Positions 2,104 through 45,179 of a DNA stretch of 48,501 nt are shown piece after piece. The stretch's first letter is position 1, and each line of letters starts with the position of its first letter. The position numbers were made by a program, and so were the translations under genes. The notes beneath the pieces were generated by a model. The model did not search any database and was not told where the DNA came from. It saw only the letters and a list, made by a program, of their open reading frames with translations. The DNA lies in the IMG/VR virus record IMGVR_UViG_3300036830_000038, positions 1 through 48,501 of that record. One strand, given 5' to 3'. The DNA is from a virus.

Positions 2104-3966
2104 CTATGCAACAGCTTCCATACCTCTTCTAAACTTATTCAGCCGCTGCGCGAGGAATTCTGCTACAGCATCTTCATCAACCAAGTCAAAATTCCAAACT
2201 TGCAAACCGTAACCAAATACGTCTAACAGATCAATTAAACCCTTCTTCTGTCCCCAGGCTTCAGCCTCTTCTCTAAACGTCTCTACCCCATACCCAGCCG
2301 CCGGGAGCCAAACCTCATGTCTCTCAACCAACGGTATCGTAGAATCTATCCTCTCAACCTTCGCATTAGCTGCATTTGAAGTTTTCAACTCCAATATCTG
2401 TATCTGCGCCAACTCAGGACGAAGCCGCCGATTTGCATTAATATAATACCTCATATGATACAATAAATACTTTTGAGCACCGACGGCTTCGATATAAATC
2501 TTATCCAACTTCCACTTAATCGCTAGGTCAAAAATCTGTTTAACAAACTTATCAGGCCCACAAGCCTCCGCCCACATTTCGAGTAAATAAACTCTTCGTG
2601 GATCTCTATGCACCCCCGAAACAATCGCAGCATGGCGGCATCTACCACCTTCTCCTAACTTATCCTTATGCTCACCACTATGATTCGGATCGACTATTAA
2701 AAACCTATCTAAATTCCTCGGAAACACATCTTTAACCACATCTCCCTCTACCACATGATGCCTAACCACTACCCTCTTCTGATGTGGGGTCTGTCCAATT
2801 CCTAGACCCTTCGGATTAGCAATAGCTCCGGAGACTTGTTCATAATGAAAATATCTAAAATCCCCCATTTTATACTTCGCCTTTGAAGGATCAATAGGAA
2901 AATTAAGGAACTGACACGAGAAGAAATAAGAACCGAGTCTTTTCTTAAACCGTAAAAGCTTCTCAACACCAAACGCTTCAGGGAATATAGCTTTACCAAG
3001 AGGATGAAGCTTGCAACATCCTCCAAGAGCAGAATGAGTTGTACGATTAAAATACGGTTCATTCTCTCCCACCCATGAATTAAGATCTTTATGACTCCAT
3101 CTATTCCCTACAAGAATCTCATCAAAATCTCGTCCAGGATTCTTCGGGTCTGAATCCATCGCACCGACTAAGAGTTGATGATACTCAATCGTAGACTGCA
3201 TTACAGGATCAGAATTCAACGCATCTTTACCAACCAAGTCGTCTTGAATGGATAGATCATAATGTCGCGACTGTAACGCTGCGCCAACTCCGATAAAGTC
3301 AAAAGTTCCTTCTCCATGGCCTTGTCCAAGGATTGTACGCTTTTGATGTAAACTCTCGTTCGTCCACGTCTCTTTCGTCCCCGGCTGTATCTCCGGCCAG
3401 AGTTCCCTAAAATCTGCGTTGTTGACATACTGATTCGAAATTCGAACACCGAGTTTAATCGCATTTTTAATCGTCTCAGATACGATCAAGATTCTAATAT
3501 CCTGGTTGTGAGTTCTATGCATCCATTCGATGAAGAGATCAGAAAAACCAAGGCTAGTGAATAAATCCTCTTCCGGCTTTCCGAATGGAAGCGCTCTCCA
3601 TATAGGAAAACATTCACTATAAACTGTGCTCTTGTAATGATCTCTCGGAATCTCAATGATCTCTTTCAACCCATCTTTCATCACTGTCAAACACATCTGA
3701 TAGTGAAGACTTGTCTCACCTCTCTGAAACCTTGACTTTTTCAAAACTGTCGTGCTGAAGTAATATAAATCAATCAGCGAATTTACTTTATACGCGAGTT
3801 TCTTCGCCGTACCTTGTAGTCTATGAGCAGGAAATAGCTTGTAGTTAAGTATCTCACTCCGGGGAACAACTGTAGCTCCGATATCCGACACATCAAAATC
3901 CAACACACGTGCAGCGGCAGATTTTAAATTCTGTATCTGATCTCTTCCTGGAGTCTTAACTCTCAC
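2104..3966 (-). CDS. Terminase large subunit, 620 aa
   Basis: This is the DNA-packaging motor ATPase and nuclease. A Walker A-like IPRDHYKST (residues 106-114) precedes the Walker B-like YDLSIQDD (236-243) with the expected acidic pair. The C-terminal half has RNase H-like nuclease acidic residues in order: FLIVDPNH (D427), IYIEAV (E494) and GLIDLLDVF (D579/D582). Length is at the upper end of the family. The GTG start at 3964-3966 overlaps the stop of the SleB-type hydrolase gene (TAGTG). It moves DNA into the prohead through the portal encoded downstream. The match to the family is clear from the ordered motifs; I cannot assign the packaging strategy. Confidence 0.85.
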   Translation of the reverse strand: MRVKTPGRDQIQNLKSAAARVLDFDVSDIGATVVPRSEILNYKLFPAHRLQGTAKKLAYKVNSLIDLYYFSTTVLKKSRFQRGETSLHYQMCLTVMKDGLKEIIEIPRDHYKSTVYSECFPIWRALPFGKPEEDLFTSLGFSDLFIEWMHRTHNQDIRILIVSETIKNAIKLGVRISNQYVNNADFRELWPEIQPGTKETWTNESLHQKRTILGQGHGEGTFDFIGVGAALQSRHYDLSIQDDLVGKDALNSDPVMQSTIEYHQLLVGAMDSDPKNPGRDFDEILVGNRWSHKDLNSWVGENEPYFNRTTHSALGGCCKLHPLGKAIFPEAFGVEKLLRFKKRLGSYFFSCQFLNFPIDPSKAKYKMGDFRYFHYEQVSGAIANPKGLGIGQTPHQKRVVVRHHVVEGDVVKDVFPRNLDRFLIVDPNHSGEHKDKLGEGGRCRHAAIVSGVHRDPRRVYLLEMWAEACGPDKFVKQIFDLAIKWKLDKIYIEAVGAQKYLLYHMRYYINANRRLRPELAQIQILELKTSNAANAKVERIDSTIPLVERHEVWLPAAGYGVETFREEAEAWGQKKGLIDLLDVFGYGLQVWNFDLVDEDAVAEFLAQRLNKFRRGMEAVA

Positions 3967-10471: not shown

Positions 10472-11092
10472 GTGTTTCTATTTTACGAAAAATTCCCAGC
10501 CTCCGGTGATATTCCGCAGGTAACTCAAGTAGTTCTCTCGTCAAACGGACGAGATCATTTTATTAACTGGAAAAACAAAGCTGAAGAAGCTACGATTAAT
10601 CTCGTTCGAAATATCTTCAAACAAGTTCCGATTAAAGAAAGAGATATGGATGAAAAACTCTATATCTGGACTTTTATCGGATTTCGCGGAGATGTGTTGC
10701 TTGAGGGGATTAAGTCTTTTCAGACTCAGGGAGTTCTGCAGAATATAGAACTCAAAGAGATTTCGGATCTATCAGATAAGGTTAAGCTAGGAAGGCTTAA
10801 TGTAAAGAACTTGAGCGTAGTTAACGAAGAGAAGAAATTCCAAGACGAGGATTTCTTTCACCGCGGCGAGGCTATAAATTCCCTTGATCCTACCGGCGCG
10901 GTTCTACTCGAACGGCTTGCTCCACTCTTGAACGTATCTGTATCTTATCTCACAAACGAGAGTGATCGAGGGATACTTAAAAAGCTTTACAGAGCTGCCG
11001 CAATGAAACTGCATCCAGATAGAAACAACAACGACTCCGCTCCTATGACGGAGTTAAACTATCTCTGGAATATCTTCAACTCTGGAGTTTAG
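10472..11092 (+). CDS. Protein with C-terminal J-domain, 206 aa
   Basis: Residues about 150-203 form a J-domain-like unit: a helix, then LYRAAAMKLHPDRN with the diagnostic HPD at 181-183, and a closing helix (TELNYLWNIF). J-domains stimulate the ATPase of DnaK/Hsp70. Here the domain is C-terminal, and the first 110 residues are a novel alpha/beta domain; no G/F region or zinc finger follows. The start is the GTG at 10472, since GAGAGGAGA precedes it and the overlapping ATG at 10470 leads only to a 17-codon frame. It begins a tightly packed operon with a coiled-coil protein, a VWA protein and an FtsK-like ATPase. It may recruit host DnaK to phage or host targets. Confidence 0.7.
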   Translation: MFLFYEKFPASGDIPQVTQVVLSSNGRDHFINWKNKAEEATINLVRNIFKQVPIKERDMDEKLYIWTFIGFRGDVLLEGIKSFQTQGVLQNIELKEISDLSDKVKLGRLNVKNLSVVNEEKKFQDEDFFHRGEAINSLDPTGAVLLERLAPLLNVSVSYLTNESDRGILKKLYRAAAMKLHPDRNNNDSAPMTELNYLWNIFNSGV

Positions 11093-20772: not shown

Positions 20773-20882
20773 GCGATCATGCGGTACAATTACTAATTGA
20801 CTGTTTCAAGTGGTTCGTTGGAGTGATGTTATTCACTGGAATTTGTTTACTTTTTCTAGGCGCTTTTGATAAGGATAACTAA
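20769..20882 (+). CDS. Small membrane protein, 37 aa
   Basis: The ORF is joined to both neighbours by ATGA and TAATG overlaps. The product has one hydrophobic segment (about residues 15-31, WFVGVMLFTGICLLFL) and short polar ends, a single-pass membrane protein. Its function is unknown. Confidence 0.5.
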   Translation: MSDHAVQLLIDCFKWFVGVMLFTGICLLFLGAFDKDN

Positions 20883-21982
20883 TGCCATTCATTCATCCAA
20901 AAGGTAGTCCTTCCTCGCAGATATGGGTAATTCTTGATACCCCTATCTCTACAGACATACCCAAAGGCTTTATCCTCTCTGGTGGGATGGGGTTTATGTT
21001 TGATAAAATGATGAGTGATGCGGGGATACGAGACTACTATGTAACTTGCAGGCGGCCAGATACAGATGATCCGAAGAGTTTCCGAATCGTAGAGTCTGAG
21101 CTGAATCAGTATAAACCTCCGTTTATCATTACAGTCGGAGAAGCTGGTGAATTCTTTTGTAAGATTCTATCCAACGAAGGTAAGGGAAAGAAACTTGCGA
21201 AGTCTTCGGAGTTGTTTAAGTATTCCGGATCTCTCCTATCTTCCGATTCTTTTCTTTCTTATCCACATTATCTCATGCCTATGTTAGATTTGAGACAGAT
21301 TGTGTCTGATTGGAAGGAGAGGAATATCGTCACGTACTTCGACTTGCAGAAGTTGAGAGTTGAACTTGAGTATTTCAAAAAACACGGTAAACTTCAGCCG
21401 CTTCCACAGAGAAACATTCATTATCAAGATATGACATTGGAGGTTTTAATTGAAAAACACTTCGCACAGCTTCGCAATGCTCCTATCCTTAGTGTTGATA
21501 TTGAGAGTGTCTACACAAAAAGAGATTCGGTTTTTGCGCCGCACCCAGGTTATATCACAACCGTTGGTATTGCAGACTCTTCAAGCTACGGAATCTCTTT
21601 TAATCTGTTTAGAGACAGTTCTAAAGAATGCGTCGTCCTCTGGCGGGAATTAGATAGACTTCTTAGCTCGAAGATGATATTAGGGCAGAATTTCTACGAG
21701 TTTGATGCCCCGCGTTTACGTGCTATGGGGATTGATATTAGCAAAAAGAATATCATTGATACAAAGATTAGGCATCATATTCTATGGCCTGAGTTAAGTC
21801 ATACTTTGCAATTTATGACTAGGCAATATACGAGAGAGATTTATTATAAGGACGAGGGTAAAGCGTGGAATATGAAGAACATGGCAAAGCTTAGACGATA
21901 TAATTGTTTAGATGTTTGCGTGACTTATGAGGTTTACGCGCAGCAAGAAGAAGAATTCGCAGAACGTAAGGAGATTGCATAA
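20882..21982 (+). CDS. UDG-like domain fused to DnaQ-type 3'-5' exonuclease, 366 aa
   Basis: Residues about 13-135 resemble the uracil-DNA glycosylase superfamily fold (strand VILDTP, GGMGFMFDKMM, then PPFIITVGEAG), but the catalytic motif GEAPG is replaced by LDTP, so glycosylase activity is doubtful. Residues 200-350 are a DEDD exonuclease: SVDIES (D206, E208), GQNFYEFD (N270, D275) and YNCLD (Y340, D344). This is the proofreading half of a phage family A polymerase; the polymerase half is a separate gene at 22995. The ATG overlaps the previous stop (TAATG). Confidence 0.75.
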   Translation: MPFIHPKGSPSSQIWVILDTPISTDIPKGFILSGGMGFMFDKMMSDAGIRDYYVTCRRPDTDDPKSFRIVESELNQYKPPFIITVGEAGEFFCKILSNEGKGKKLAKSSELFKYSGSLLSSDSFLSYPHYLMPMLDLRQIVSDWKERNIVTYFDLQKLRVELEYFKKHGKLQPLPQRNIHYQDMTLEVLIEKHFAQLRNAPILSVDIESVYTKRDSVFAPHPGYITTVGIADSSSYGISFNLFRDSSKECVVLWRELDRLLSSKMILGQNFYEFDAPRLRAMGIDISKKNIIDTKIRHHILWPELSHTLQFMTRQYTREIYYKDEGKAWNMKNMAKLRRYNCLDVCVTYEVYAQQEEEFAERKEIA

Positions 21983-22338
21983 TGCCTGCATCGAGTAAAG
22001 CAAGAGAGAAAAGAAGCCTTGATTCATTCATAGACAAGCTTAGTGATCCAAATGGATGCTGGCTGTGGACTGGCGCTATTAATCAAAAAGGTTATGGAAT
22101 AACTAAGGATAATCATCGTAAAACTATAGTTGCACATCGGTTAGTATATATTACATTAGTAGGGCCAATTCCTATTGGATTACAGCTAGATCATGTAAAA
22201 GAACGTTGCAAGAATAAACATTGCGTGAATCCTGAGCACCTTGAGCCTGTTACAGGGGCGGAGAATATGCGTAGAAGATATGAGAATTATTCGTATAAAA
22301 CTGTAAGAGGAAGAAACCAAGCAAAGGAGACAAAATGA
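21982..22338 (+). CDS. HNH homing endonuclease, 118 aa
   Basis: GCWLWTGAINQKGYG (25-39), AHRLVY, LQLDHVKERC (68-76) and HCVNPEHLEPV (80-90) form the HNH-type ββα-metal site with Cys ligands of the phage free-standing class. Such enzymes cut DNA to promote their own copying. It is inserted between the exonuclease gene and the polymerase gene and overlaps the former (TAATG). Confidence 0.8.
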   Translation: MPASSKAREKRSLDSFIDKLSDPNGCWLWTGAINQKGYGITKDNHRKTIVAHRLVYITLVGPIPIGLQLDHVKERCKNKHCVNPEHLEPVTGAENMRRRYENYSYKTVRGRNQAKETK

Positions 22339-22532
22339 CCAGTATCACGATTCACGATGAGGATGTTTTGCAGCTAAAGTTTACTCTCTTTCTCGCAGAG
22401 CCGCCCTCGATCCAAGTAAGAGAGAAGATGCATAAATGGCTAGATTTTCTCTTTGACAGAAACATGACAGAATACAGCGGCACAGTTTATGTAAACAAAG
22501 TTGAAATCTTGACGGAGATTCCAGGTGAGTGA
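22335..22532 (+). CDS. Hypothetical protein, 65 aa
   Basis: I do not recognise this protein. It is a small alpha/beta protein with no Cys pairs and a C-terminal acidic end. The ATG at 22335 has AAAGGAGA upstream. Its stop overlaps the start of the next HNH gene. It lies in the HNH-bearing gap between the exonuclease and polymerase. Confidence 0.5.
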   Translation: MTSITIHDEDVLQLKFTLFLAEPPSIQVREKMHKWLDFLFDRNMTEYSGTVYVNKVEILTEIPGE

Positions 22533-22995
22533 CGTATTTGAAATGATTGCATTGTATAAAGAAAAAGCAGCTAATCTAGCTGTTGAACGGCTATTTAAGA
22601 ATAGGATAATAAATGAAAATGGCTGCTGGTTATGGACAAAAGGGAAAGATAAAGACGGTTATGGAAAAATTACTGTCGCAGATGTATCTTGGCTAGTGCA
22701 TAGATTTGCTATGGCTATATTTAAGCCAGAAGAATTTGCAGAGTATTTGAAAGTTCTTCACAATTGTGATACTCCAGCTTGTTTTAATCCGGAACATTTG
22801 TATTCTGGAACTGGCTCAGATAATAAACAAGATGAAATTCGGCGAGGTAGAAACTTTAACAACCGTAAAACACATTGTATAAATGGCCATGAGTTTACAT
22901 CTGAGAATACTATCAACACTAAAGAAGGTTGGAGAAAATGTAAGACTTGTCAGACAAAACTAACTCAGGCAAATTATGCTAGGAGAACACTTTAA
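22525..22995 (+). CDS. HNH homing endonuclease with zinc C-terminus, 156 aa
   Basis: GCWLWTKGKDKDGYG (33-47), then VLHNCDTPACFNPEHL (77-92) give the HNH metal site. The C-terminal 40 residues contain HCINGHEFTSENT and RKCKTC, a second zinc module common in phage HNH proteins. The GTG start at 22525 lies inside the previous gene, with CGGAGAT upstream. It sits directly before the DNA polymerase gene. Confidence 0.8.
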   Translation: MSDVFEMIALYKEKAANLAVERLFKNRIINENGCWLWTKGKDKDGYGKITVADVSWLVHRFAMAIFKPEEFAEYLKVLHNCDTPACFNPEHLYSGTGSDNKQDEIRRGRNFNNRKTHCINGHEFTSENTINTKEGWRKCKTCQTKLTQANYARRTL

Positions 22996-24515
22996 TGGAG
23001 AGAATCACTTCAACTTATTTGCATAATTTGCAAAGGATTTATTGTGACATAGGAGATCGTGGTATTTGTGTAGATACCCAAAGAGTAGAAGTTAATATTC
23101 AACGTATCGATGCCCTGATTCAACAGCAACTTGCGATAGCTAGTAATCAATGGGGATGTATTGTTTTTGTAGGTGCTCATAATGCCCCTTCGAAAGAGTC
23201 AGGTCTTTTAACTGATTCTGTTAATTTAAATGCAACTCAGGGTGAAAGAGCTTTACTAAACAAACTGAAAAATCTTGGATATAACATTCCAAAGATCACA
23301 GCTAAGAACAGCGAAGGAGAATATGAGCAAAGATTCAGTACTGGAGAACTTGCACTTCAACGAATGCTTGTCGAGAATAAATTTAACTATCCAGGATCAG
23401 ATCCAGCTATACGAGCTATTCTCAAGACACGAGAATTGGGAAAGATCAAATCTGTGTATTTGTGTAGCAGGTTATTCAAACGAGGAAATCTCTATTTCTT
23501 TCTCTGTGGATACAATGTCGCTGGCACACTTACAGGCAGGCGGACTTCGCGTAAGCACACTTATGGATATGGCAACAACAGTCAGAATTTTCCTAAGCAC
23601 AGCGAAACTTCTTCGTATTTTAGAGAATGCCTCGTGCCCAGACCAGGAAATATATTCTTGTTCGTTGACCAGGTACAAGCAGAAGAGTGGCCTGTTTCTG
23701 CCCTCTCAAATAACACCAGCGCCTTGGCGGAGCTTAAGAACGGAGTGGACAGACACAGTGCGCTCGCTTCGAAAATCTTTGGCGAGAACATCCCTGCAAA
23801 AGACTCACCACTTTTTGTAAAATCAATTCATGATTTTAAGAGATATTTAGGAAAAAAGCTCAAACACGCACGTAATTATGGAATGAAGAAGAAAAGAATG
23901 AGCGAAAGTCTCGCTCAGGAGGGGTTTAGTGTTAATGAAGCAATGTGTGAGATTCTTCTTAACAAAGCCGCAGCGGCAGATCCTTCTGTGGATTTTGTAT
24001 TTCATAAATACGTGCAAGAACAATTATCTAACCATCATTTGCTGGTCACTCCTTTTGGGCGTGAGCGAATGTTTCTGGCCTGCCGCCCAAATGCTGACAA
24101 CAACACTGTTTTCAACGAAGCCTACAGCTATATCCCGCAATCAGTAGTAGGCGATAACACTGGATTTACAGTGGCTTCTTTGGACGAAGGTCTGGCCGAT
24201 GGCCTCTCGTCTGATTTCATTGTACAAGAAGGACATGACTCCATTGTACAAGATATTCCAGATTCGATCGAAAGTGTATTGTTTCATCTTAGACGAATCG
24301 AGAAGGCTTTTTCTCGTAAGATTAGATTTCATAACGGTATCGAAATCGAAATACCAATCGAGCCGAGTATCGGATATGATTTTAACGAAGAGGTTGTTAT
24401 AAAGACTTTTGATGAAAGTGGAGTAAGAGCCGCGATGGAGAAATTGAGAGAGAAAAGAGAAAAGAAAAGAGAGGCGGAAGCTAATGCCGCAGCCGCGTTT
24501 AGTATTTCTGCATGA
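22995..24515 (+). CDS. DNA polymerase, family A (PolA-like), 506 aa
   Basis: This is the replicative polymerase domain. GTLTGRRTS (177-185) with the later NNSQNFP corresponds to the TGRxSS/NLQNIP region. Motif A is FVDQVQAEE (223-231, D225), motif B is KKLKHARNYG (K287 to G296), and motif C is EGHDSI (412-417). Motif C has HDS instead of the usual HDE, and motif A is unusual. There is no exonuclease domain; that is encoded at 20882-21982. The ATG at 22995 follows AGGAGAACACTTTA. The last 30 residues are a basic, Ala-rich tail. Confidence 0.8.
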   Translation: MERITSTYLHNLQRIYCDIGDRGICVDTQRVEVNIQRIDALIQQQLAIASNQWGCIVFVGAHNAPSKESGLLTDSVNLNATQGERALLNKLKNLGYNIPKITAKNSEGEYEQRFSTGELALQRMLVENKFNYPGSDPAIRAILKTRELGKIKSVYLCSRLFKRGNLYFFLCGYNVAGTLTGRRTSRKHTYGYGNNSQNFPKHSETSSYFRECLVPRPGNIFLFVDQVQAEEWPVSALSNNTSALAELKNGVDRHSALASKIFGENIPAKDSPLFVKSIHDFKRYLGKKLKHARNYGMKKKRMSESLAQEGFSVNEAMCEILLNKAAAADPSVDFVFHKYVQEQLSNHHLLVTPFGRERMFLACRPNADNNTVFNEAYSYIPQSVVGDNTGFTVASLDEGLADGLSSDFIVQEGHDSIVQDIPDSIESVLFHLRRIEKAFSRKIRFHNGIEIEIPIEPSIGYDFNEEVVIKTFDESGVRAAMEKLREKREKKREAEANAAAAFSISA

Positions 24516-24762
24516 TAACACAGGTTACAAGCAAGGATGTAGATGCGCGGAGTGTAAACACGCACATTCTTGTAGTTATGTAAACTGGAAAAGAGAGTTG
24601 AAGAGAAAAAGCCCTGCGAGATATAAGGCTTTGCTACGAAGAGATAATCTGTACAAAAGATCACGAACTGAAAAGAGAGAAGAGAAAAGAGAAGAGAAAA
24701 GAATCCAGGCTATCAAAACTGAAAAGATGATGGAGCTTGCTTTGAAGATAAAGGGGAGATAG
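24484..24762 (+). CDS. Small CRC-motif basic protein, 92 aa
   Basis: The N-terminus holds HDNTGYKQGCRCAECKHAHS, like a common small zinc-binding phage motif (H...GCRC..C). The rest is very basic, with KREEKREEKR repeats reflected as GAGAAAAGA repeats in the DNA. It probably binds nucleic acid. The ATG lies inside the polymerase end (32-base overlap), without a clear Shine-Dalgarno. Confidence 0.5.
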   Translation: MPQPRLVFLHDNTGYKQGCRCAECKHAHSCSYVNWKRELKRKSPARYKALLRRDNLYKRSRTEKREEKREEKRIQAIKTEKMMELALKIKGR

Positions 24763-24764
24763 TG

Positions 24765-25163
24765 ATGAATCTTGATAATTTTTATGTGATTGATCCAACT
24801 AATCAATGTTGGATTTGGTCTAAGACGCAGGGAAACGGAGGATATGGTTTATATTTTCCTCGTAAAGGATCAAGCATATCTGCTCATAGATATGTTTATG
24901 AATTACACAAAGGTCCAATTCCAGACGGTTTGGAATTAGATCATTTATGTAAAAATCGACTTTGTGTAAATCCAGAGCATTTGGAAGCCGTAACGCGAAC
25001 AGTAAACGTAAGGAGAAGTGCATGTACAAAACTAACACCTGAAATTGTAATAGAAATCAAGCAGAAATTGGAAAGGGGTCTGGATCAAGCATACATAGCC
25101 AGAGTCCATGGAGTATCACAATCTACTATTAGCAGGATTAACTTGGGATACGTCTGGAGATAG
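24765..25163 (+). CDS. HNH homing endonuclease with C-terminal HTH, 132 aa
   Basis: CWIWSKTQGNGGYG, SAHRYVYELHKGPIPDG, LELDHLCKNRLCVNPEHL and AVTRTVN are the HNH core. The C-terminal 35 residues (QAYIARVHGVSQSTISRIN) are a resolvase-like HTH that gives DNA specificity. Start is ATG 24765, with GGGGAGAT just upstream; a GTG at 24762 is unlikely because it overlaps the previous stop. It is a paralogue of the gene at 26415 and flanks the helicase/primase gene with it. Confidence 0.8.
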   Translation: MNLDNFYVIDPTNQCWIWSKTQGNGGYGLYFPRKGSSISAHRYVYELHKGPIPDGLELDHLCKNRLCVNPEHLEAVTRTVNVRRSACTKLTPEIVIEIKQKLERGLDQAYIARVHGVSQSTISRINLGYVWR

Positions 25164-25166
25164 TAC

Positions 25167-26405
25167 ATGGCTCGGCTTCTGCAGCGTCCCTGGTATGTTG
25201 AGTTCGTTGATTGCTGTTTGCCCCATACGGAAGCTCCTAAGAATTATTTATTCTGGAGCGCAATTAGTGTTTTATCTGGAATACTCAAAGATAAAGTGTT
25301 TTTTAACGAAGGTTTGTTCACGTTATATCCGAATCAATTCATCATACTTGCAGGACCTCCAGGTATAGGCAAAGGTACAGCTATTAACTTTGCTTGGAAA
25401 ATGACTAAGACACAGACGGGAAGACTTGCAAATGTTCTTACAGACAAGGCTACAATACCAGCAATACTGGATCTTATTGCAAAAGGCTGGACCGGACCGA
25501 TTAGAATTGTGCAAGGTGCTGTTACAGGATCTATGGAGCACTCATGTACTATTATCGCTTCTGAACTTCAGACTTTGTTGTCTTCAACAGGTGATCCTAC
25601 TACGCTTGCGACTTTCTGCCAACTATGGGACCAGCAAGAGTATGAAAACAGAACGAAGAATCAAGGAACTAATATCATTAAAGACATGTGCGTTAACGTT
25701 ATTGGAGGTACCGTACCTGATTACATTAGATCAATGGAACGAGAACTCGGTTCGTTTGTGGCAGGCGGTTTCACGGCTCGGTGTATTTTTATCTTCGAGG
25801 AAAAGAAATCAAAAGAGTTACCATTCATCAAACCGATAGACAAGAGTCCGAAGTCAAAGCTTCTTTATGACAAACTTGTTCAAGACCTCGACTACATCGC
25901 GAAGAATATCCAAGGTGAGTATGTACTCTCAACTGACGCGGAGCTTGTGTTTCAGAATGAATACTCATCGTTTAGTCCAACTTTTGACGACTCCGAGGCG
26001 ATGCAGAATTTCAAAGCTAGAATGAAAACTCATATCTACAAACTATCCATGGTTCTCATGGCGGCACATACAGATTCGATGTTAATAACAGGTCAGGTAA
26101 TGCGAGATTCGTTTTTTCTCATACGAACAGTGAGGAGACAAATTGATCGAATCTTTAGAGGCGTCGGTTCATCTCAACTCTCTGAGCCAACTGCACGAGT
26201 TCAAGCTATTATTGAAAGAAGGAGTATGTGTACACGTTCGGAGCTTATCCAAGCAACCCAACGGTACATGGATTATACAACTCTCGATAAAGTCCTTTAC
26301 GTCCTTGGGCTTATTGGGTTTTGCGAAGAAGTTAGGGTGGGATCTAAGGTTTATTTCAAACAAATCGTGCATCCTGTTGGTGGAATTAATCCAAAGAAAC
26401 CTTAG
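25167..26405 (+). CDS. DUF3987-like helicase/primase ATPase, 412 aa
   Basis: Walker A AGPPGIGKGT (62-71) follows the DUF3987-like N-terminal pattern (EFVDCCLPHTEAPKNYLFWSA, here broken at residues 12-32, and VFFNEGLFTLYPNQF). The Walker B-like region is CTIIASELQTLL. The C-terminal 130 residues are helical with a small winged-helix-like end. Such ATPases are thought to act as replication helicases or primase-helicases in phages without DnaB-like genes. It lies between two HNH genes after the polymerase, within the replication block. Confidence 0.65.
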   Translation: MARLLQRPWYVEFVDCCLPHTEAPKNYLFWSAISVLSGILKDKVFFNEGLFTLYPNQFIILAGPPGIGKGTAINFAWKMTKTQTGRLANVLTDKATIPAILDLIAKGWTGPIRIVQGAVTGSMEHSCTIIASELQTLLSSTGDPTTLATFCQLWDQQEYENRTKNQGTNIIKDMCVNVIGGTVPDYIRSMERELGSFVAGGFTARCIFIFEEKKSKELPFIKPIDKSPKSKLLYDKLVQDLDYIAKNIQGEYVLSTDAELVFQNEYSSFSPTFDDSEAMQNFKARMKTHIYKLSMVLMAAHTDSMLITGQVMRDSFFLIRTVRRQIDRIFRGVGSSQLSEPTARVQAIIERRSMCTRSELIQATQRYMDYTTLDKVLYVLGLIGFCEEVRVGSKVYFKQIVHPVGGINPKKP

Positions 26406-26414
26406 AAGAGAAAT

Positions 26415-26879
26415 ATGACAAGAACAACACGTCCTATAGATCAATGTTATGTATATGAAGATCCAAAAGATCCAAAAAGTTGTTGGCTTTGGACGCGAGG
26501 AACTAATGGTGTTGGATATGGTACTACATATTGGCGCAGTAAAACAATGAGTGCTCATGTAGTTTTATATACTATGTATAAAGGAGAGATTCCAGATGGT
26601 TGTGAATTAGATCATCTATGCCGAAATCGTTTATGCGTAAATCCAGAGCATTTGGAAGCTGTGCCACGAAGAGTTAATCTACGACGCGGTAAAAGTACGA
26701 AACTAACAGAAATTGAAGTGATTGAGATTAAGAATTTACTTCTTGAAGGAAGAACTTATCAGGAGCTAGGACGTAAATATTATGTAGCGAAATCAACTAT
26801 TCAAGCTATAGCGAATGGTACATCTTGGAGTGATATTTTGGTGGAATACAAACAAAGAAACCATGAGGGAGTGAGATGA
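26415..26879 (+). CDS. HNH homing endonuclease with C-terminal HTH, 154 aa
   Basis: SCWLWTRGTNGVGYG, then CELDHLCRNRLCVNPEHL and AVPRRVN are the HNH core. A C-terminal HTH follows (TYQELGRKYYVAKSTIQAI). The central IPDGxELDHLCxNRLCVNPEHLEAV core, here given in consensus, is shared with the gene at 24765, so the two are recent paralogues. It starts at ATG 26415 with GAAGAGAAAT upstream. It separates the helicase gene from the GroES-like gene, and its stop overlaps the latter (ATGA). Confidence 0.8.
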   Translation: MTRTTRPIDQCYVYEDPKDPKSCWLWTRGTNGVGYGTTYWRSKTMSAHVVLYTMYKGEIPDGCELDHLCRNRLCVNPEHLEAVPRRVNLRRGKSTKLTEIEVIEIKNLLLEGRTYQELGRKYYVAKSTIQAIANGTSWSDILVEYKQRNHEGVR

Positions 26880-27547
26880 GTAAGGAACTGGAAAACGCAG
26901 AGGTACTCGCAGAGCGTAGTACGAAGATGGTTAATACGAAAAACACTATCGTATTAGACGATGGATCTAACGAAGTAACGATTCCTGGGTTTCCGTACAG
27001 GTTTGAGGCAAAAGGGGAGAATGTTTTAGTCTCGGTGGATATTTTCAAATCTGGATTGGAGTGTAGGACGTGTAAAGGAATGATGAGGTTGAAGAAGGAG
27101 TGTGAGTGTGAGAGTACAGACCGGCCAGGGTTTAAATACTCAAAGACTCAAGTTGCGGACTTCGCAAATGATCTCGGAGACTCTGCTGCTGAGGGTAGAA
27201 TGAATATGATTTGTCCTTTATGTGAGGGGCATTTCGAGGAAATCCGAATGGATATAGAATGTCCGGATTGTAAAGGCAAAGGGACTCTTTTACACATCCC
27301 TGAAACCTCAAAAAGCCTTCCTACTACAGGCGTGATTGTCTCACTTGGAAACAAAGTAGATCCGTCCTATAACTACAAACGTGGACAGAGAGTTCTCTTT
27401 GGGCAGTATACAGGTGTGATGATCCCTACTAAGGCGCCGGGAGTTGTGTTCAAGGTACTGAGACAGTTAGAGGTACTTTGTGAGATTAAAGGGGGAGAAG
27501 ATTTGGCTAATTTTGATTTTGTTATTCTCGACAAACCCTTGAACTAA
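26876..27547 (+). CDS. GroES-like co-chaperonin with DnaJ-type zinc finger insert, 223 aa
   Basis: A split GroES fold can be read. The first strand is GENVLVSVD (about 47-55); after an 80-residue insert come GTLLHIPETSKSLPTTGVIV (136-155), SLGNKVD, YKRGQRVLFGQYTG (167-180) and VLRQLEVLCEI (194-204). These match the mobile loop, domed core and last strands of GroES. The insert (61-135) has eight Cys: CRTCKG (63-68), CEC (76-78), CPLCEG (113-118) and CPDCKGKG (129-136), the CxxCxGxG repeats of the DnaJ zinc domain. The finger lies just before the mobile loop that docks on GroEL. It could let one protein cap GroEL and bind clients. The N-terminal 45 residues are a charged extension. I am confident of the two modules, less of the function. 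Confidence 0.75.
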   Translation: MSKELENAEVLAERSTKMVNTKNTIVLDDGSNEVTIPGFPYRFEAKGENVLVSVDIFKSGLECRTCKGMMRLKKECECESTDRPGFKYSKTQVADFANDLGDSAAEGRMNMICPLCEGHFEEIRMDIECPDCKGKGTLLHIPETSKSLPTTGVIVSLGNKVDPSYNYKRGQRVLFGQYTGVMIPTKAPGVVFKVLRQLEVLCEIKGGEDLANFDFVILDKPLN

Positions 27548-27922: not shown

Positions 27923-30532
27923 TTAATTATATCCTCTTAAGTGGCAATTAGCAGTAGATCCAGAACCATTCGCCGTAACACTAACCGTCGAACCACTTAC
28001 AAACAACGCTGCGATAGTTCTAGGATTTCCAGTTACGTCATTTGTACTATCTGCAGTACATGTCATTCCTAAGAATGTACTGACGGAGTGAGGAATAGTT
28101 ACGGTAGTTGGTACGTTATCATTCAACGCTCCAGTTTCAAAGTCTTCGTCATAGATAGTAATAGACGAACCTCCGGATAACGTTGCAGATGTCGTTTGAT
28201 AAAAACCACTTCCTGAGGATGTTAGTATAGGAGCGGTACTAGGACAGTTTGTGCCTGCGCAATCAAAACTATTACCGGAAGTATGCGTCGTATTAATCGC
28301 GATCCACTTCATTTGCATTGCGCCTTGCTTATCCCCTGAAGTTCCTCCGTTTACATCAAGAACCGCCGTAGAATCGCGCGTCAAGCTAGTATCCGCAGTC
28401 CCCTGTCCGAAACTAGAATTCCATCCCAATCCAATATTTTGCGGCATATCAATACCCGGACCTGGTTCGCCAAAAATCAGATAAGGATAAGCGTCACCAC
28501 CAGTGCAAGGATCTCCAGAATGATCATAGTAAATAGCTGGATACCATGTAGAGCCACTAAAATCCAGACGGTATCCAAAAGCCGCACACGTTCCGTCTGT
28601 TAGATTATCAACCCCCCACCACGCGTAATCTGCAGCGTGTTGGAATTGAATCATTTGCGGCGCACCATTCGCATCATTTGGCGCACTATACCAATTCGTC
28701 TGCTGCAGATTTGGGCAACCATCACCATGGCCGCACTGCGTCTTCAATTGGAGATAATTCAGCAAAGTTGCGTTCGCATCTTGTGCGATTACCTGATTGC
28801 CTTGATCTGAAAAATGAGGCGGATTAGCCGGTTGCGTCATCTGATTCAGAGAGTTAATCTGCGAAGCCGCATCTACCAGATAATCCCAATATTGATTTCG
28901 AAAATAAACCGCAACTGAAGACAATGCACTTGTTGTATTAACAGAAAGAGTTAAAGTTGTCGAACCGCTATTTGCACACGATGGAGAACAGGCTGTGATG
29001 TAAGTATTACTAGGAATACCAGCTCCAATAACTTCTTGATAAAGAGCTGAACTTGTTCCATCAGCGACAACTAATGAATTGCTACCAGATGAAGCTGTTC
29101 CGGTAGTAGCTTCAACATAACCACCTTTTCCTTGTGCTTTTGTCCAGAGATTTAGTTGTTGAAAAGCCTGGTAAAAGGAATTGTCGTTGCAAGCACCCCC
29201 GTCTGAGGCATGAGAATTGGCTGGATTAGTAAGCATTGCTGCTTGCATTCCATCTGCGTGGGTAAGAGCCCAAAGTTTTTGATACCCAACTTCTAGACTA
29301 GGGAGTGCTGAGAGAGCGCAACCTCCGTTTATAACTAGATCATCATATCCAGCAAGTAAGAATAAATAACCAGGATTGCCAGTGATAACAGTTGAAAGAG
29401 GATGAATCGTTGCGTTGTAGAAGGTAGTTAGATCAGAAATCGTTTCACCACTTGTAGTGTTGAATGCTGACACTGTTCCATGGCCACTGAAATATGGCTT
29501 GTTTGCCATGATAAGAGGCCAATTGTAAGTTGCATTGATCAGCGCACCACCTGTTCCGGTTCCCGTTACAGTAGATGCAATTTCAAATTGAGTAGAAGAT
29601 AATCCGGTCGAAAGAACTTGAGCGTAATAAGGATTTCCAACCAATGCTGAAGGATCAAATCCACTACAGCAAAATCCAACCCAATTGCCAACTTTGAAAT
29701 TATTTAGCGCCGTGATGATACAAACAGTACCGTCGCAGTTTGCAGCCGTTGCAGGAGGAATTGTGATTCCTGATGTAGTGCTCGATAATCCACGACTATC
29801 AGTTAGTACAAAGTAATTTACATTCGGAGGATTAGGAGGAACGATTCCGCCAGAGACAGATACGTTGATGTTACCAGCAGAAGGATTAGTCCAAGATGCA
29901 CTATTTGCATCTTGAAAATTAGCTGGAGAAGGTGTATGAAGATCAACTCCATTTACTTGTATAGTCGCGCCACTAGGAACTCCGTTGTAACAAGCCCAGG
30001 CAGATCCGTCATAGTATCGTTGGCACATAGATGTTACATTCCAATATGTGCCGCCGGGGACTAAGGCTGTGGTTGCTTCAGAGTCTGAATATCCATAAGA
30101 CCCAGCAGAAGCGGGGAATTTAGGCACAGGGATAATTGGAATTAGCGCGGAAGAAAGATTCAACGTCGAAAGAGTTCCAGTGCTGAAGTTATACACTCCA
30201 CAAGGTGCTGTCGCATTTGGACAGACAGAGATTCTCCACGTACTCCCCCCAGGAGACACAACTCCATTTTGATACGCAGAGAAACTTAGAGCTGCGGAAC
30301 TATTCATTAATCCTTTTTGATTCAAAACCGTAGGATCAAGAGGAGTTCCGTTGATGTTATATACATTAATGTTAGGATTGTTAGGACTTGGGATAAACTC
30401 TAACTTCCATGATCCATTATTCCAAGCTTGGCTAGAAGAATCAGTTACTGTAGCAGTAACCGCTGTTGTTTGAGCATAGGCGATGTTTAAACCAAGCCCA
30501 AGTATAAATAAAATTCCCCAAATTCTTTTCAT
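27923..30532 (-). CDS. Secreted-type SGNH/GDSL hydrolase, putative receptor-binding/host-surface protein, 869 aa
   Basis: An N-terminal signal peptide (MKRIWGILFILGLGLNIAYA, residues 1-20) precedes an N-terminal beta domain (about 25-135) and a linker. Then SGNH-hydrolase elements appear: LTDSRG (243-248, block I Ser), GYDD (395-398, block III) and PPHFSDQG (571-578, block V His). Long insertions (about 255-340, 478-545) interrupt the fold. The C-terminal 300 residues are Ser/Thr/Gly-rich beta structure. SGNH enzymes deacetylate sugars or cleave esters. It ends the late operon, the usual place of tail-fibre genes, with AGGAGAAAGAC upstream of ATG. A Sec signal on a phage tail protein is unusual; it may instead be a released enzyme. 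Confidence 0.7.
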   Translation of the reverse strand: MKRIWGILFILGLGLNIAYAQTTAVTATVTDSSSQAWNNGSWKLEFIPSPNNPNINVYNINGTPLDPTVLNQKGLMNSSAALSFSAYQNGVVSPGGSTWRISVCPNATAPCGVYNFSTGTLSTLNLSSALIPIIPVPKFPASAGSYGYSDSEATTALVPGGTYWNVTSMCQRYYDGSAWACYNGVPSGATIQVNGVDLHTPSPANFQDANSASWTNPSAGNINVSVSGGIVPPNPPNVNYFVLTDSRGLSSTTSGITIPPATAANCDGTVCIITALNNFKVGNWVGFCCSGFDPSALVGNPYYAQVLSTGLSSTQFEIASTVTGTGTGGALINATYNWPLIMANKPYFSGHGTVSAFNTTSGETISDLTTFYNATIHPLSTVITGNPGYLFLLAGYDDLVINGGCALSALPSLEVGYQKLWALTHADGMQAAMLTNPANSHASDGGACNDNSFYQAFQQLNLWTKAQGKGGYVEATTGTASSGSNSLVVADGTSSALYQEVIGAGIPSNTYITACSPSCANSGSTTLTLSVNTTSALSSVAVYFRNQYWDYLVDAASQINSLNQMTQPANPPHFSDQGNQVIAQDANATLLNYLQLKTQCGHGDGCPNLQQTNWYSAPNDANGAPQMIQFQHAADYAWWGVDNLTDGTCAAFGYRLDFSGSTWYPAIYYDHSGDPCTGGDAYPYLIFGEPGPGIDMPQNIGLGWNSSFGQGTADTSLTRDSTAVLDVNGGTSGDKQGAMQMKWIAINTTHTSGNSFDCAGTNCPSTAPILTSSGSGFYQTTSATLSGGSSITIYDEDFETGALNDNVPTTVTIPHSVSTFLGMTCTADSTNDVTGNPRTIAALFVSGSTVSVTANGSGSTANCHLRGYN

Positions 30533-30541
30533 GTCTTTCTC

Positions 30542-30643
30542 CTACAATCCAGGTAGTAAAGCTTCTGGCTGAAACCACCACGCCCATTCGAAGCATGGGA
30601 ACTGTTCCCAGGTATCAAAATGTGCATATCCCATCATTTTCAT
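30542..30643 (-). CDS. Small Trp-rich peptide, 33 aa
   Basis: The ORF overlaps the ATP-grasp gene stop by ATGA and ends eight bases before the Shine-Dalgarno of the SGNH gene. The product has four Trp and several Phe/Pro (WAWWFQPEALLP), with no homology known. Coupling supports translation; a chance ORF cannot be excluded. Confidence 0.4.
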   Translation of the reverse strand: MKMMGYAHFDTWEQFPCFEWAWWFQPEALLPGL

Positions 30644-31944
30644 AACCATCCCCATTCTTCGAGTTGTGTGTACCGCGCTAGAGTAGATTTGTGGATATCT
30701 GTACGATACTGGGCATTAGGGATTTGAATATCTAACATTCTTCCCTCAAGCTGTGCGAAAGCGGATTCGATAGAGTGCCCGGCGCTAAGTACAGCTCCGA
30801 TATATCCATAGTTTCCACTTGTCACTAACTCTTTCTTCTCTACCATCGCATCGAAAAGATACATCTCACAAAGCTGTGCTAAATCCTTCGGATCTATTCC
30901 TTGAATTGGTATACCCTTTGTCTTAGGTATCTTTATCTCCGTCGGATAAGGTGGGATAGTAATCGTAATAGCAGCCCCAAAACTACCAGAACCCCACTTA
31001 ATAGAAGGAGACTTGCCACTGGCGATGTCAAAGAGTAACTCGCCGTAGCCAGAGCCATACATAGTAGCAATAGTAGGACAGCACAAGTAGCCAAACCGCG
31101 GCGTCCATTCAAGAGCATAGACTTTACTCTCCGTTACGATCGTATTTAAATCAATGATTCCTCTGAAGCCGAATTCTTTTAACATCGGCTTAGCCTTAGC
31201 TAATCCTTCTTTGTAAATCATCATATCTTCATTCATCGCGAAGATAAGATTCCCTGCACAACCTGTATTCGGGCCTTTGTTATCGTTCATAAACTTCTTC
31301 TCTTCCAATGTTCCTGTGATGAGATAGAAGTCTTCTCCATTGAAAAAAGCCTCAGTTCCAATCTCAGTTCCTTTGACTACTTCCTGAAGAATAAACGGAG
31401 CATTCTTTGCCGCCGCCCAGACTTTATCAATAAACTTCAACATATCTTCTGCGCTTTTTGCAACGTAGGTTGTAGCTGTGTCTTGCGTCTGTCCACCTGC
31501 GGTAAAGGGTTTAAAAACATACGCACGATCAAATTTCTTAATAAAAGGCTTCGCTTCTGCTGCGGTATTAAACCTTTCATACGGTGGAACGTTAATCCCG
31601 CACTTCTCCATCATCTCTATCCCAAACTCTCGATCATCTTCGAGCATATGCTCAAGTTCACCATCTCCCAACGTAGCTGTTTGGCTCCTCGAATGATCTG
31701 CGAGTTTAGCTCGTCCTGTTAAATCAAAAAGAGACAAATCATACTTCTCGTAGTTAGGAAACCCATAACCTTGTAAATGCCTCCGTTGATCTATCGAAGT
31801 CATCTTAGGGGGCGGAATAAGCCCCCTAAGAACGTCTTCGTATTTATCATCTGAAAGAAAGTAATCCACATCATGTCCTTCAGCTAACAGCCGTAAGACC
31901 CACCATGCACCCATTGCTGTATACGAAGACAAGGCAATTTTCAT
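30640..31944 (-). CDS. PurD-like ATP-grasp ligase, 434 aa
   Basis: ATP-grasp features: the first Rossmann-like part (MKIALSSYTAMGAW), VFKP (143-146, K145 for ATP), LQEVVKGTEIGTEAF (186-200), GPNTG (224-228), IDLN (264-267) and LEWTPRFG (278-285), then YRTDI near residue 413. GPNTG, RFG and YRTDI are the hallmarks of GAR synthetase (PurD), but the Mg-binding Asn of EFNxRFG is Thr here (EWTPRFG). No other purine genes are present, so a ligase that joins an amino acid or peptide to another substrate is as likely as PurD activity. It lies in the virion operon between ejection proteins and the SGNH gene, with AAAGGAA upstream of ATG. Confidence 0.75.
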   Translation of the reverse strand: MKIALSSYTAMGAWWVLRLLAEGHDVDYFLSDDKYEDVLRGLIPPPKMTSIDQRRHLQGYGFPNYEKYDLSLFDLTGRAKLADHSRSQTATLGDGELEHMLEDDREFGIEMMEKCGINVPPYERFNTAAEAKPFIKKFDRAYVFKPFTAGGQTQDTATTYVAKSAEDMLKFIDKVWAAAKNAPFILQEVVKGTEIGTEAFFNGEDFYLITGTLEEKKFMNDNKGPNTGCAGNLIFAMNEDMMIYKEGLAKAKPMLKEFGFRGIIDLNTIVTESKVYALEWTPRFGYLCCPTIATMYGSGYGELLFDIASGKSPSIKWGSGSFGAAITITIPPYPTEIKIPKTKGIPIQGIDPKDLAQLCEMYLFDAMVEKKELVTSGNYGYIGAVLSAGHSIESAFAQLEGRMLDIQIPNAQYRTDIHKSTLARYTQLEEWGWL

Positions 31945-43564: not shown

Positions 43565-44521
43565 CTACGGACCTTGTGTTCCCCACACACCCTGCCACCG
43601 TGTTGCTCCAGCAGACATGCGAAGTCTAATCTTCTGCTTAAGAGCATCAGAGTCGAAGTCATCATCAAACGTCGTCTTCGGACGTTCGCGATGATAAACC
43701 ACAAGCGAATGATCCATCTTATCCGCGCACATAAACCAGCTTGACGCTGAATTAAGCCATGGGATTTCCATATGCTTGTAGTCTTCAGGTAGAAGAGAGT
43801 TAATCGTGTTATCCGCGGTGTACGGTTTCCCACTCGATCCAAGAACTTCTCTAACCAAGAAACGAAGTTCCGGAGGAGTTACAAGATACTTCCAACGAAG
43901 TCTAATCGGGAAACCTTGATTATCAACCATTCTAGCAGCGTGGTTTGTTGCTAACTGCAACCCAGCTACAGAAAAGTCAATATCAACATTCGGACGATTG
44001 GGCCACGTTCCAGATGCGTAAATAACATTCGCCGCACCAGGAGCAAGATTCGTTGCTGGGGTCCCGCCAAGCAAAGGATGTTCGTCGAAGAACAACGGAT
44101 TCCCATCGACTGTCGTAACATTCGAGGTAAATCCGTTATTAAACGTATACCACGCGATCATCTCTTGCGTAAACGCGGCAGAACGTGCGAGAAGTACCGG
44201 GCCTTTTTTAATCAACCCATATTTATCATCATCCATCAATTCCTTAGATGTACGAATTGCCAAGGAATAAGTCAGATGGATATACCGTTTCGTACCTCCC
44301 TGAATCATCTCGTTGTAAGCAGAAGGGGAATTTTCTGGTTTTTCCTGCAATGCAGAAAGTCCAGCCATTTCCATTTCCTGCTCGTACTCGTTATCCGATG
44401 TTTTTTCGTGAAACACTTTCGGATAATCACTTTGTTTCATCATAGAATCAATCGAATCGAAGTAAATCTTCGACTGTCCCAATGCCATCAGCTGCGGAAA
44501 CTTTGCTCTAACCTGTGCCAT
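43565..44521 (-). CDS. Major capsid protein, gpT-like HK97 fold, 318 aa
   Basis: The pattern HLTYSLAIRTSKELMDDDKYG, here spanning about residues 81-101, with a later DGNPLFFDEHPLLGG fits the Mu gpT-like group of HK97-fold major capsid proteins. The ATG at 44521 is chosen because AAAGGAGGAAAAAG is just upstream; the frame continues 28 codons further up but without a Shine-Dalgarno and with a basic, unlikely sequence. Neighbouring genes are scaffold-like, decoration-like and minor capsid types. It is probably the most abundant virion protein. A strong hairpin follows the stop. Confidence 0.7.
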   Translation of the reverse strand: MAQVRAKFPQLMALGQSKIYFDSIDSMMKQSDYPKVFHEKTSDNEYEQEMEMAGLSALQEKPENSPSAYNEMIQGGTKRYIHLTYSLAIRTSKELMDDDKYGLIKKGPVLLARSAAFTQEMIAWYTFNNGFTSNVTTVDGNPLFFDEHPLLGGTPATNLAPGAANVIYASGTWPNRPNVDIDFSVAGLQLATNHAARMVDNQGFPIRLRWKYLVTPPELRFLVREVLGSSGKPYTADNTINSLLPEDYKHMEIPWLNSASSWFMCADKMDHSLVVYHRERPKTTFDDDFDSDALKQKIRLRMSAGATRWQGVWGTQGP

Positions 44522-44540
44522 CTTTTTCCTCCTTTCTTTC

Positions 44541-45179
44541 TTACTGGTTCTGCTGCGCCGCAGCAAGGAATTGGAAACGTACACGAGCGTTGACGATAAA
44601 ACCATCGAGGGGGTTAATTCCTACGATTTGGAGAACAGCATCGCCTCCAGTTTTATCCGCATCTACATACCAGAAGTGGTTGCTATCTGCAGTCAACCCC
44701 AACTGTCCAGCACTCGTGTTAATCATAGCCTGCGTCGGAGTATAATCTGCCGCCACAGTTCCTGCTGAGTTGTCGTAGATAGCTTCGAAGATGTTATCAT
44801 TGTTCGCATAAACGAAGAGCGTACGCCCATCGCTCATTGGAGTACCTAAAGCAATGTTAACTGCCAAAGGTTCATTGATAACATATCCATAAGTCTGAAT
44901 CGCACCTGGGGCACCAATAGGTCCAAAAGGAACTCCCGGCGCTCCTAAACCATTCGAAGCTAGATTCAACCCGAAAGATTCAGAAACTCCCAAGATACCA
45001 TGAGAAACCGTAGTACCATCCCATGCTTGAACGAATCCAGAACTTGCCATCTGTACTGGAGTCCCGTTTTTAAACGTCTGGCTCGCAAGTTCAGCCAAGC
45101 CATTCGTCAACGGTGCCGTGTTTGCCCTATTCATAATCGGAAGAATAGGTGCGTGGTAAGAGATATTCGGCCCTGCCAT
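44541..45179 (-). CDS. Putative capsid decoration or minor capsid protein, 212 aa
   Basis: I do not recognise a named family. It is a Gly/Ala/Asn-rich beta protein with strings such as GAPGVPFGPIGAPG, resembling decoration or head-fibre proteins with a jelly-roll. It directly precedes the major capsid gene in the operon, with AAAGGGAT upstream of the ATG. No membrane segment is present. Confidence 0.55.
   Translation of the reverse strand: MAGPNISYHAPILPIMNRANTAPLTNGLAELASQTFKNGTPVQMASSGFVQAWDGTTVSHGILGVSESFGLNLASNGLGAPGVPFGPIGAPGAIQTYGYVINEPLAVNIALGTPMSDGRTLFVYANNDNIFEAIYDNSAGTVAADYTPTQAMINTSAGQLGLTADSNHFWYVDADKTGGDAVLQIVGINPLDGFIVNARVRFQFLAAAQQNQ

Follow-up and report, generated by a model that had tools for sequence, protein, structure and literature searches.

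Gene organization of the locus

The stretch of viral DNA analyzed here (hereafter, the window) is a complete IMG/VR virus record of 48,501 bases, with a terminase gene (2104-3966, minus strand), a major capsid protein gene (43565-44605, minus strand) and a plus-strand replication block of Sak4-like, FtsK-like, nuclease, DNA polymerase and DUF3987 primase/helicase genes. The penultimate gene of this block (26876..27547, plus strand), complete and coding for 223 amino acids, specifies a co-chaperonin of GroES type whose mobile loop contains a DnaJ-type zinc domain; its boundaries are exactly those proposed in an initial annotation made by motif reading. The start codon at 26876 overlaps (ATGA) the stop codon of the HNH gene before it, and directly 5' of the ATG lies a purine-rich GAGGGAG. 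This HNH endonuclease gene (26415..26879, plus strand), absent from the corresponding position in the relative L007, separates the co-chaperonin gene from its conserved upstream neighbor, the DUF3987 primase/helicase (25167..26405, plus strand; synteny in 60/60 relatives).

Two further features of the region were recorded. The family A-type DNA polymerase is apparently split into two plus-strand ORFs within 20882-24515, an exonuclease part (20882-21982) and a polymerase part (22995-24515), which are consecutive pieces of phrog_17 separated by HNH-related ORFs; the ORFs at 21982-22338, 22525-22995, 24762-25163 and 26415-26879 cluster together. On the minus strand, two large proteins (27923-30532 and 30640-31944) have a signal-like start and a repeated domain at the N-terminus (..NINVYNINGTPL..). 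They are probably tail fibres or surface proteins, and also stand in tandem in L007 and in 15 loci of the lineage.

A GroES barrel interrupted within its mobile loop

We explored the GroES part of the protein using family profiles, a predicted structure and alignment to solved co-chaperonins. PF00166 (Cpn10) matched residues 139-202 of the window protein with 24.5 bits (cut-off 21.1), and was above cut-off in all ten relatives scanned and in 38 of the 48 records of the genome search. An AlphaFold2 model of the window protein, built on a 49-member alignment (mean pLDDT 85.5), contained the GroES-like barrel on which the initial annotation depended, and in Foldseek it matched Thermus, Xanthomonas and mycobacterial Cpn10 (target-normalised TM 0.61-0.64) as well as T4 gp31 (0.63), with several alignments spanning both sides of the insert. 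Searched against the PDB, the family profile matched GroES structures with E-values as low as 3e-14, and its insert region retrieved BSD2 (0.012) and DnaJ (0.016).

The N-terminal GroES strand and the first half of the mobile loop occupy residues 41-62 (YRFEAKGENVLVSVDIFKSGLE; 26996..27061, plus strand), equivalent to E. coli GroES 1-22, with a strand predicted at residues 49-54. Since the profile score of this strand alone was not significant, we do not claim it on profile grounds; its assignment rests on the alignment register, on the model and on an intermediate sequence, the relative L305, which reads AIRPIHDRVLILIDPIKT at this position and which BLAST aligned to E. coli GroES 3-19 before the finger and 23-97 after it. 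The remaining barrel, recognized by PF00166, Foldseek and alignment, covers residues 137-205 (27284..27490, plus strand). Thus GroES strands do flank the insert, as had been read from the sequence. In the alignment to GroES the roof hairpin of the window protein is shorter by ~6 residues, which is not decisive against membership of the family because gp31 also lacks this element.

Some relatives carry insertions at the roof position, which the family otherwise has in shortened form. In L040:2898-3566 (minus strand) it carries a second CxxCxGxG...CxxC pair (GTKCLQCDGTGTVEF...SLCPTCCGKG), so that zinc motifs are present in both loops, and in L032:12509-13216, L090:5140-5730, L093:9545-10090 and L292 it carries insertions of ~15-35 residues, some of them Trp/Arg-rich.

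When the insert (C63-G136) was cut out, the family profile aligned with 18 bacterial GroES sequences over 87 columns (hhalign probability 98.6) without any gap at the joint: E62 fell on E. coli A22, T137 on G23, and L139-H140-I141 on I25-V26-L27. Because the joint aligns gaplessly there, we place the insert inside the mobile loop, between E. coli GroES residues 22 and 23. The initial annotation had set it just before the loop; it was right that the insert adjoins the GroEL-docking segment, and wrong in leaving it outside the loop. The mobile-loop anchor tripeptide (L139-H140-I141; 27290..27298, plus strand) follows straight from the last Cys motif of the insert. Across the family, its first position (GroES 25) is L or I in 49/49 members and its last (GroES 27) is I, V, L or M in 42/49, while the middle residue varies, being His in the window and Glu, Lys or Asp in single relatives.

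Similarity of the insert to the DnaJ cysteine-rich domain

The insert comprises residues 63-136 (27062..27283, plus strand), i.e. 74 residues with eight cysteines distributed over motif I (C63, C66; 27062..27073), motif II (C76-x-C78; 27101..27109), motif III (C113, C116; 27212..27223) and motif IV (C129, C132, G134, G136; 27260..27283), all on the plus strand. Four ordered Cys-pair motifs with Gly characterize the family. C63, C66, C129, C132, G134 and G136 were invariant in 49 aligned members, and although the motif-IV Cys and Gly belonged to the pattern used in one of the searches, members found through synteny have them as well. The eight cysteines announced by the initial annotation were therefore all present, but not in strict CxxCxG repeats, since the window protein has CxC as motif II and no GxG in motif I; the relatives L039 and L076 conform better to CxxCxG. 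The finger of the window protein is divergent: 35 residues, mostly helical, separate its motif II from motif III.

PF00684 (DnaJ finger) stayed below its cut-off in every member scanned (20.6 vs 32.7 bits for the window protein, 26.4 for the best relative). As this score is unspecific, UvrA reaching a similar value (about 22), we used stricter tests. Aligned with the DnaJ profile, the finger profile scored 52.2 in hhalign (probability 97.1). Thirty shuffles with the Cys columns left in place averaged 16.9, the highest of them scoring 25.7, which rules out chance clustering of cysteines, and UvrA scored 24.0. The fold was modelled on the relative L076, which has near-DnaJ spacing and a less divergent finger than the window protein; the best distinct PDB matches of this model were DnaJA2, BSD2, DnaJA3 and E. 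coli DnaJ, with modest E-values (0.004-0.02) that placed them ahead of UvrA and lambda Q. A UvrA- or lambda Q-type finger was rejected accordingly, the matches to UvrA (profile and fold) and to lambda Q (fold) being weaker than those to DnaJ. Together with the pairing inferred below, the controlled profile match and the fold matches bear out a DnaJ-style finger, and DnaJ-like geometry, on which the initial annotation had staked its reading, was found in the insert, with the fold taken from L076 rather than from the window finger. No PF00226 match, indicative of a J-domain, was detected in the co-chaperonin chain.

In L323, an extra CxxC...CxxC zinc-ribbon-like stretch precedes the GroES strand (ICIQCGGEVDFDTNKCILCGED); it is possibly a third metal site or part of an upstream frame.

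Putative nested zinc sites

The number of cysteines between motifs I and IV followed an all-or-none pattern. Among 54 members it was 0 (N = 6), 4 (N = 46) or 5 (N = 2) and never 1-3, so that each member had two or four Cys motifs and never three: motif I is invariant in all members, and motif II is lost or kept together with motif III. Synteny-found members agreed, with L192, L249 and L250 joining the two-motif forms, and the odd Cys counts in that set proved on inspection to be regular-expression misassignments, extra cysteines or a truncation at a contig edge. On a tree of the GroES part, the two-motif state required five changes, at least four of them forced by well-supported branches. Insert length ranged from 29 to 99 residues, forms with an insert of ~29-33 residues occurring in several lineages.

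Since the inner four cysteines come and go as a set, we infer a nested pairing, with motifs I and IV forming the outer zinc site and motifs II and III the inner one, as in DnaJ. With sequential pairing (I with II, III with IV), loss of the inner motifs would break both sites and leave none complete. The behavior of the inner cysteines thus argues, from the alignment, for a DnaJ topology. We take the always-kept site (I+IV) to correspond to DnaJ zinc centre I and the variable site (II+III) to centre II. According to PMC4428491 (citing Linke 2003), binding of substrate by DnaJ requires centre I, and its interaction with DnaK requires centre II.

Finger-GroES as a core gene across an uncultured lineage of phages

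The window protein used alone as a query had no match in INPHARED or IMG/VR. Its first relative, a 57%-identical copy on another contig, was reached with the neighboring helicase as query, and an alignment of these two sequences retrieved nothing further in IMG/VR and nothing in the genome collection. A fixed DNA pattern (motif IV plus the following GroES segment) identified 88 IMG/VR stretches, most of them with the same architecture. Because a DNA-pattern search carries bias, we also searched through the neighboring genes. All helicase relatives above ~30% identity with enough downstream DNA (60/60) carried finger-GroES, and the helicase loci devoid of it were cut short or had helicases of 23-26% identity. 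Likewise, GroES was in reach in 31 of the 80 best terminase relatives, with the finger in 30 of these 31 and the remaining one cut at a contig edge. Clustering at ~90% reduced the sequences with this architecture found in IMG/VR by pattern and by synteny to 77, which are homologues with both modules such as the initial annotation had proposed to look for. Dozens of independent contigs with conserved synteny rule out a sequencing or assembly artefact, and finger-GroES belongs to the core genes of an uncultured lineage of phages.

This lineage has two clades. In clade A (25 loci, including the window), the gene lies directly behind the primase/helicase and polymerase genes; in clade B (24 loci), it lies just upstream of the genes for the terminase large subunit and portal, mostly with one small gene between. 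Outside the conserved elements, the protein diverges to ~30% identity across both clades.

In INPHARED, tblastn with five whole-member queries found no member; the matches of the GroES half, where read, were plain GroES without insert (Microcystis, Bacteroides, Acinetobacter and spring-water phages), and AP013540 was a chance match. PHROGs returned generic GroES and zinc matches only, the single PHROG of the window protein at E 0.001 being phrog_3188, co-chaperonin GroES. In a collection of 84,980 genomes there was one match, a 47.7 kb phage-sized contig (L099 / G049:C7) in a Sulfuriferula MAG, which carries a clade A member, with an ordinary GroES elsewhere in the same bin. This bin is a possible hint to the host if the contig is correctly assigned; as L099 may be a misbinned phage, we claim no host. 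The open-access literature searched contained no report of a GroES with a DnaJ-type finger in its mobile loop, and among the cultured phages and named protein families that we searched, none showed this combination of two chaperone parts. We regard it as a domain architecture new to co-chaperonins, and as neither a new fold nor a new system.

A GroEL gene (PF00118) was found neither in the window record nor in the records of 48 relatives (several near 50 kb, many of them fragments). In contrast to the co-chaperonin chain, a separate protein of the window (10472..11092, plus strand) is J-domain-like at its C-terminus (YRAAAMKLHPDRNNND..MTELNYLW), with an HPD motif (LYRAAAMKLHPDRNNN) conserved in relatives, whose consensus is YRKAALxLHPDRNNGDGxKMSELNxLW; its PF00226 score was 22.7 bits, below the cut-off of 27.8. 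Large clade A records contained this HPD protein in 14/14 cases of at least 44 kb, and in 5/8 of a second set, compared with 0/6 clade B records and 0/11 unrelated records with a J-domain match.

Proposed function of the finger-GroES family

We regard the architecture itself, a GroES with a DnaJ-type finger, as practically certain. The protein quite probably docks on GroEL, and, given docking, there is somewhat better than an even chance that the finger contacts clients, its main task otherwise being to order the loop. The explanation that we favor, and consider fairly likely, is a gp31-like co-chaperonin for the GroEL of the host whose mobile loop is zinc-stapled and touches clients. A ring of its subunits, presumably a heptamer, would cap host GroEL as gp31 does, and the clients would come from the phage itself, proteins of the head and of packaging being the most plausible. 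One zinc site, made of motifs I and IV, would staple the ends of the insert exactly at the place of the GroES loop; the other, made of motifs II and III, would lie more distally and be dispensable. As the last zinc motif runs directly into the GroEL-anchoring tripeptide, each ring would place its seven fingers beside the rim of the chamber, and their DnaJ/BSD2-like surface could hold a client during closure of the cap.

The position of the clade B gene beside the terminase large subunit and portal genes, the missing GroEL gene and the kept anchor agree with client binding combined with GroEL capping. Against this explanation, the clade of the window adjoins replication genes and not head genes, the middle anchor residue is variable, PF00684 remains below cut-off, the N-terminal strand is non-significant by profile and the E-values of the finger fold are modest.

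The alternative that fares best is that the protein docks on GroEL without touching clients, the finger pre-ordering the loop or fitting it to host GroEL so as to outcompete host GroES. Such a role would account for the fact that the site never lost is the one stapling the ends of the loop, for the persistence of short inserts in several lineages and for the anchor placed directly after motif IV, but most members keep a second zinc site further out, in DnaJ-like surroundings that exceed the needs of a staple, and inserts vary in length from 29 to 99 residues. Since most members keep this second site and its sequence, client contact is somewhat likelier than mere loop ordering, which we consider rather unlikely.

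A bolder extension of the favored client-contacting cap, to be viewed as speculative, would make the mobile loop a DnaJ-derived client-binding domain in which recognition and capping are one act, with the J-domain protein of clade A feeding it clients from host DnaK in a relay for head proteins. Distinct from this, and improbable in our view, is an arrangement in which the two signature parts of DnaJ are split over two phage proteins, the finger and the J-domain protein together relaying clients between two chaperones of the host, from DnaK to GroEL. It would fit the HPD protein of the window and of most large clade A records, absent from 11/11 unrelated ones, and the report in PMC4428491 that the second zinc centre of DnaJ serves DnaK. 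However, none of six clade B records had a J-domain match, the inner, DnaK-type site is absent in some phages that do encode the J-protein (L029, L050, L090 and L093), and the J-domain has no clear first helix in the Pfam matches.

Finally, a GroES fold repurposed away from GroEL, e.g. as a replication or assembly scaffold with a zinc finger binding protein or nucleic acid, would suit the clade A position directly behind primase/helicase and DNA polymerase genes, the variable middle anchor residue and the weak similarity that some members show to zinc regions of the antitermination Q-like kind, but is very improbable in view of the hydrophobic anchor kept in both clades despite divergence to ~30% identity and of the chaperone fingers that head the fold matches, above UvrA and lambda Q.

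Finger-GroES unites in a single chain parts of Hsp40 and Hsp60, the two chaperone systems known best, through an insertion that is conserved across the lineage and lies at the point on which GroEL docking depends. In GroES, docking on GroEL is the task of the mobile loop, whose flexibility is regarded as tuning the folding cycle. A family with a putatively zinc-stapled loop is a natural test of the need for this flexibility and of client choice by the co-chaperonin, and one in which the core gene of an uncultured phage lineage had been missed by the phage family collections searched.

Comparison with known systems

Finger-GroES shares with bacterial GroES/Cpn10 (PF00166) the barrel, the position of the loop and the hydrophobic anchor, and differs in the zinc domain placed in the mobile loop, in its N- and C-terminal extensions and in the shortened roof hairpin. 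HspA of Helicobacter pylori is likewise a GroES with an additional part that contains Cys and binds metal, in that case a short C-terminal extension, unlike the DnaJ-type domain in the mobile loop described here.

Among phage proteins, T4 gp31 (PDB 1g31, 2cgt) acts as the GroEL cap in folding of the capsid protein gp23, lacks roof loops and has a mobile loop longer than that of GroES (PMC6318259). It resembles finger-GroES as a phage co-chaperonin of GroES fold, without a full roof and without a GroEL of its own, and is not a close relative in sequence; its loop is a flexible 22-residue peptide without Cys motifs, whereas here the loop holds a DnaJ-type domain of 74 residues (29-99 in relatives). 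Phage-borne J-domain proteins also have a precedent in Rki / 057w of a T4-related phage (PMC3486835), in that case without any link to a co-chaperonin.

On the finger side, the DnaJ Cys-rich domain (PF00684; PDB 1exk, 7zhs) has the four Cys-pair motifs with Gly, the nesting proposed here for the phage finger and the closest fold in the PDB. The phage finger differs from it in sitting within GroES without J-domain or C-terminal DnaJ domains, in having two-motif forms and in its sub-cut-off Pfam score. A DnaJ-type finger devoid of a J-domain is found in the Rubisco assembly chaperone BSD2 of plant chloroplasts (PDB 6ekb), the second-best distinct fold match, which, unlike the phage finger, is free-standing, eukaryotic and outside any co-chaperonin.
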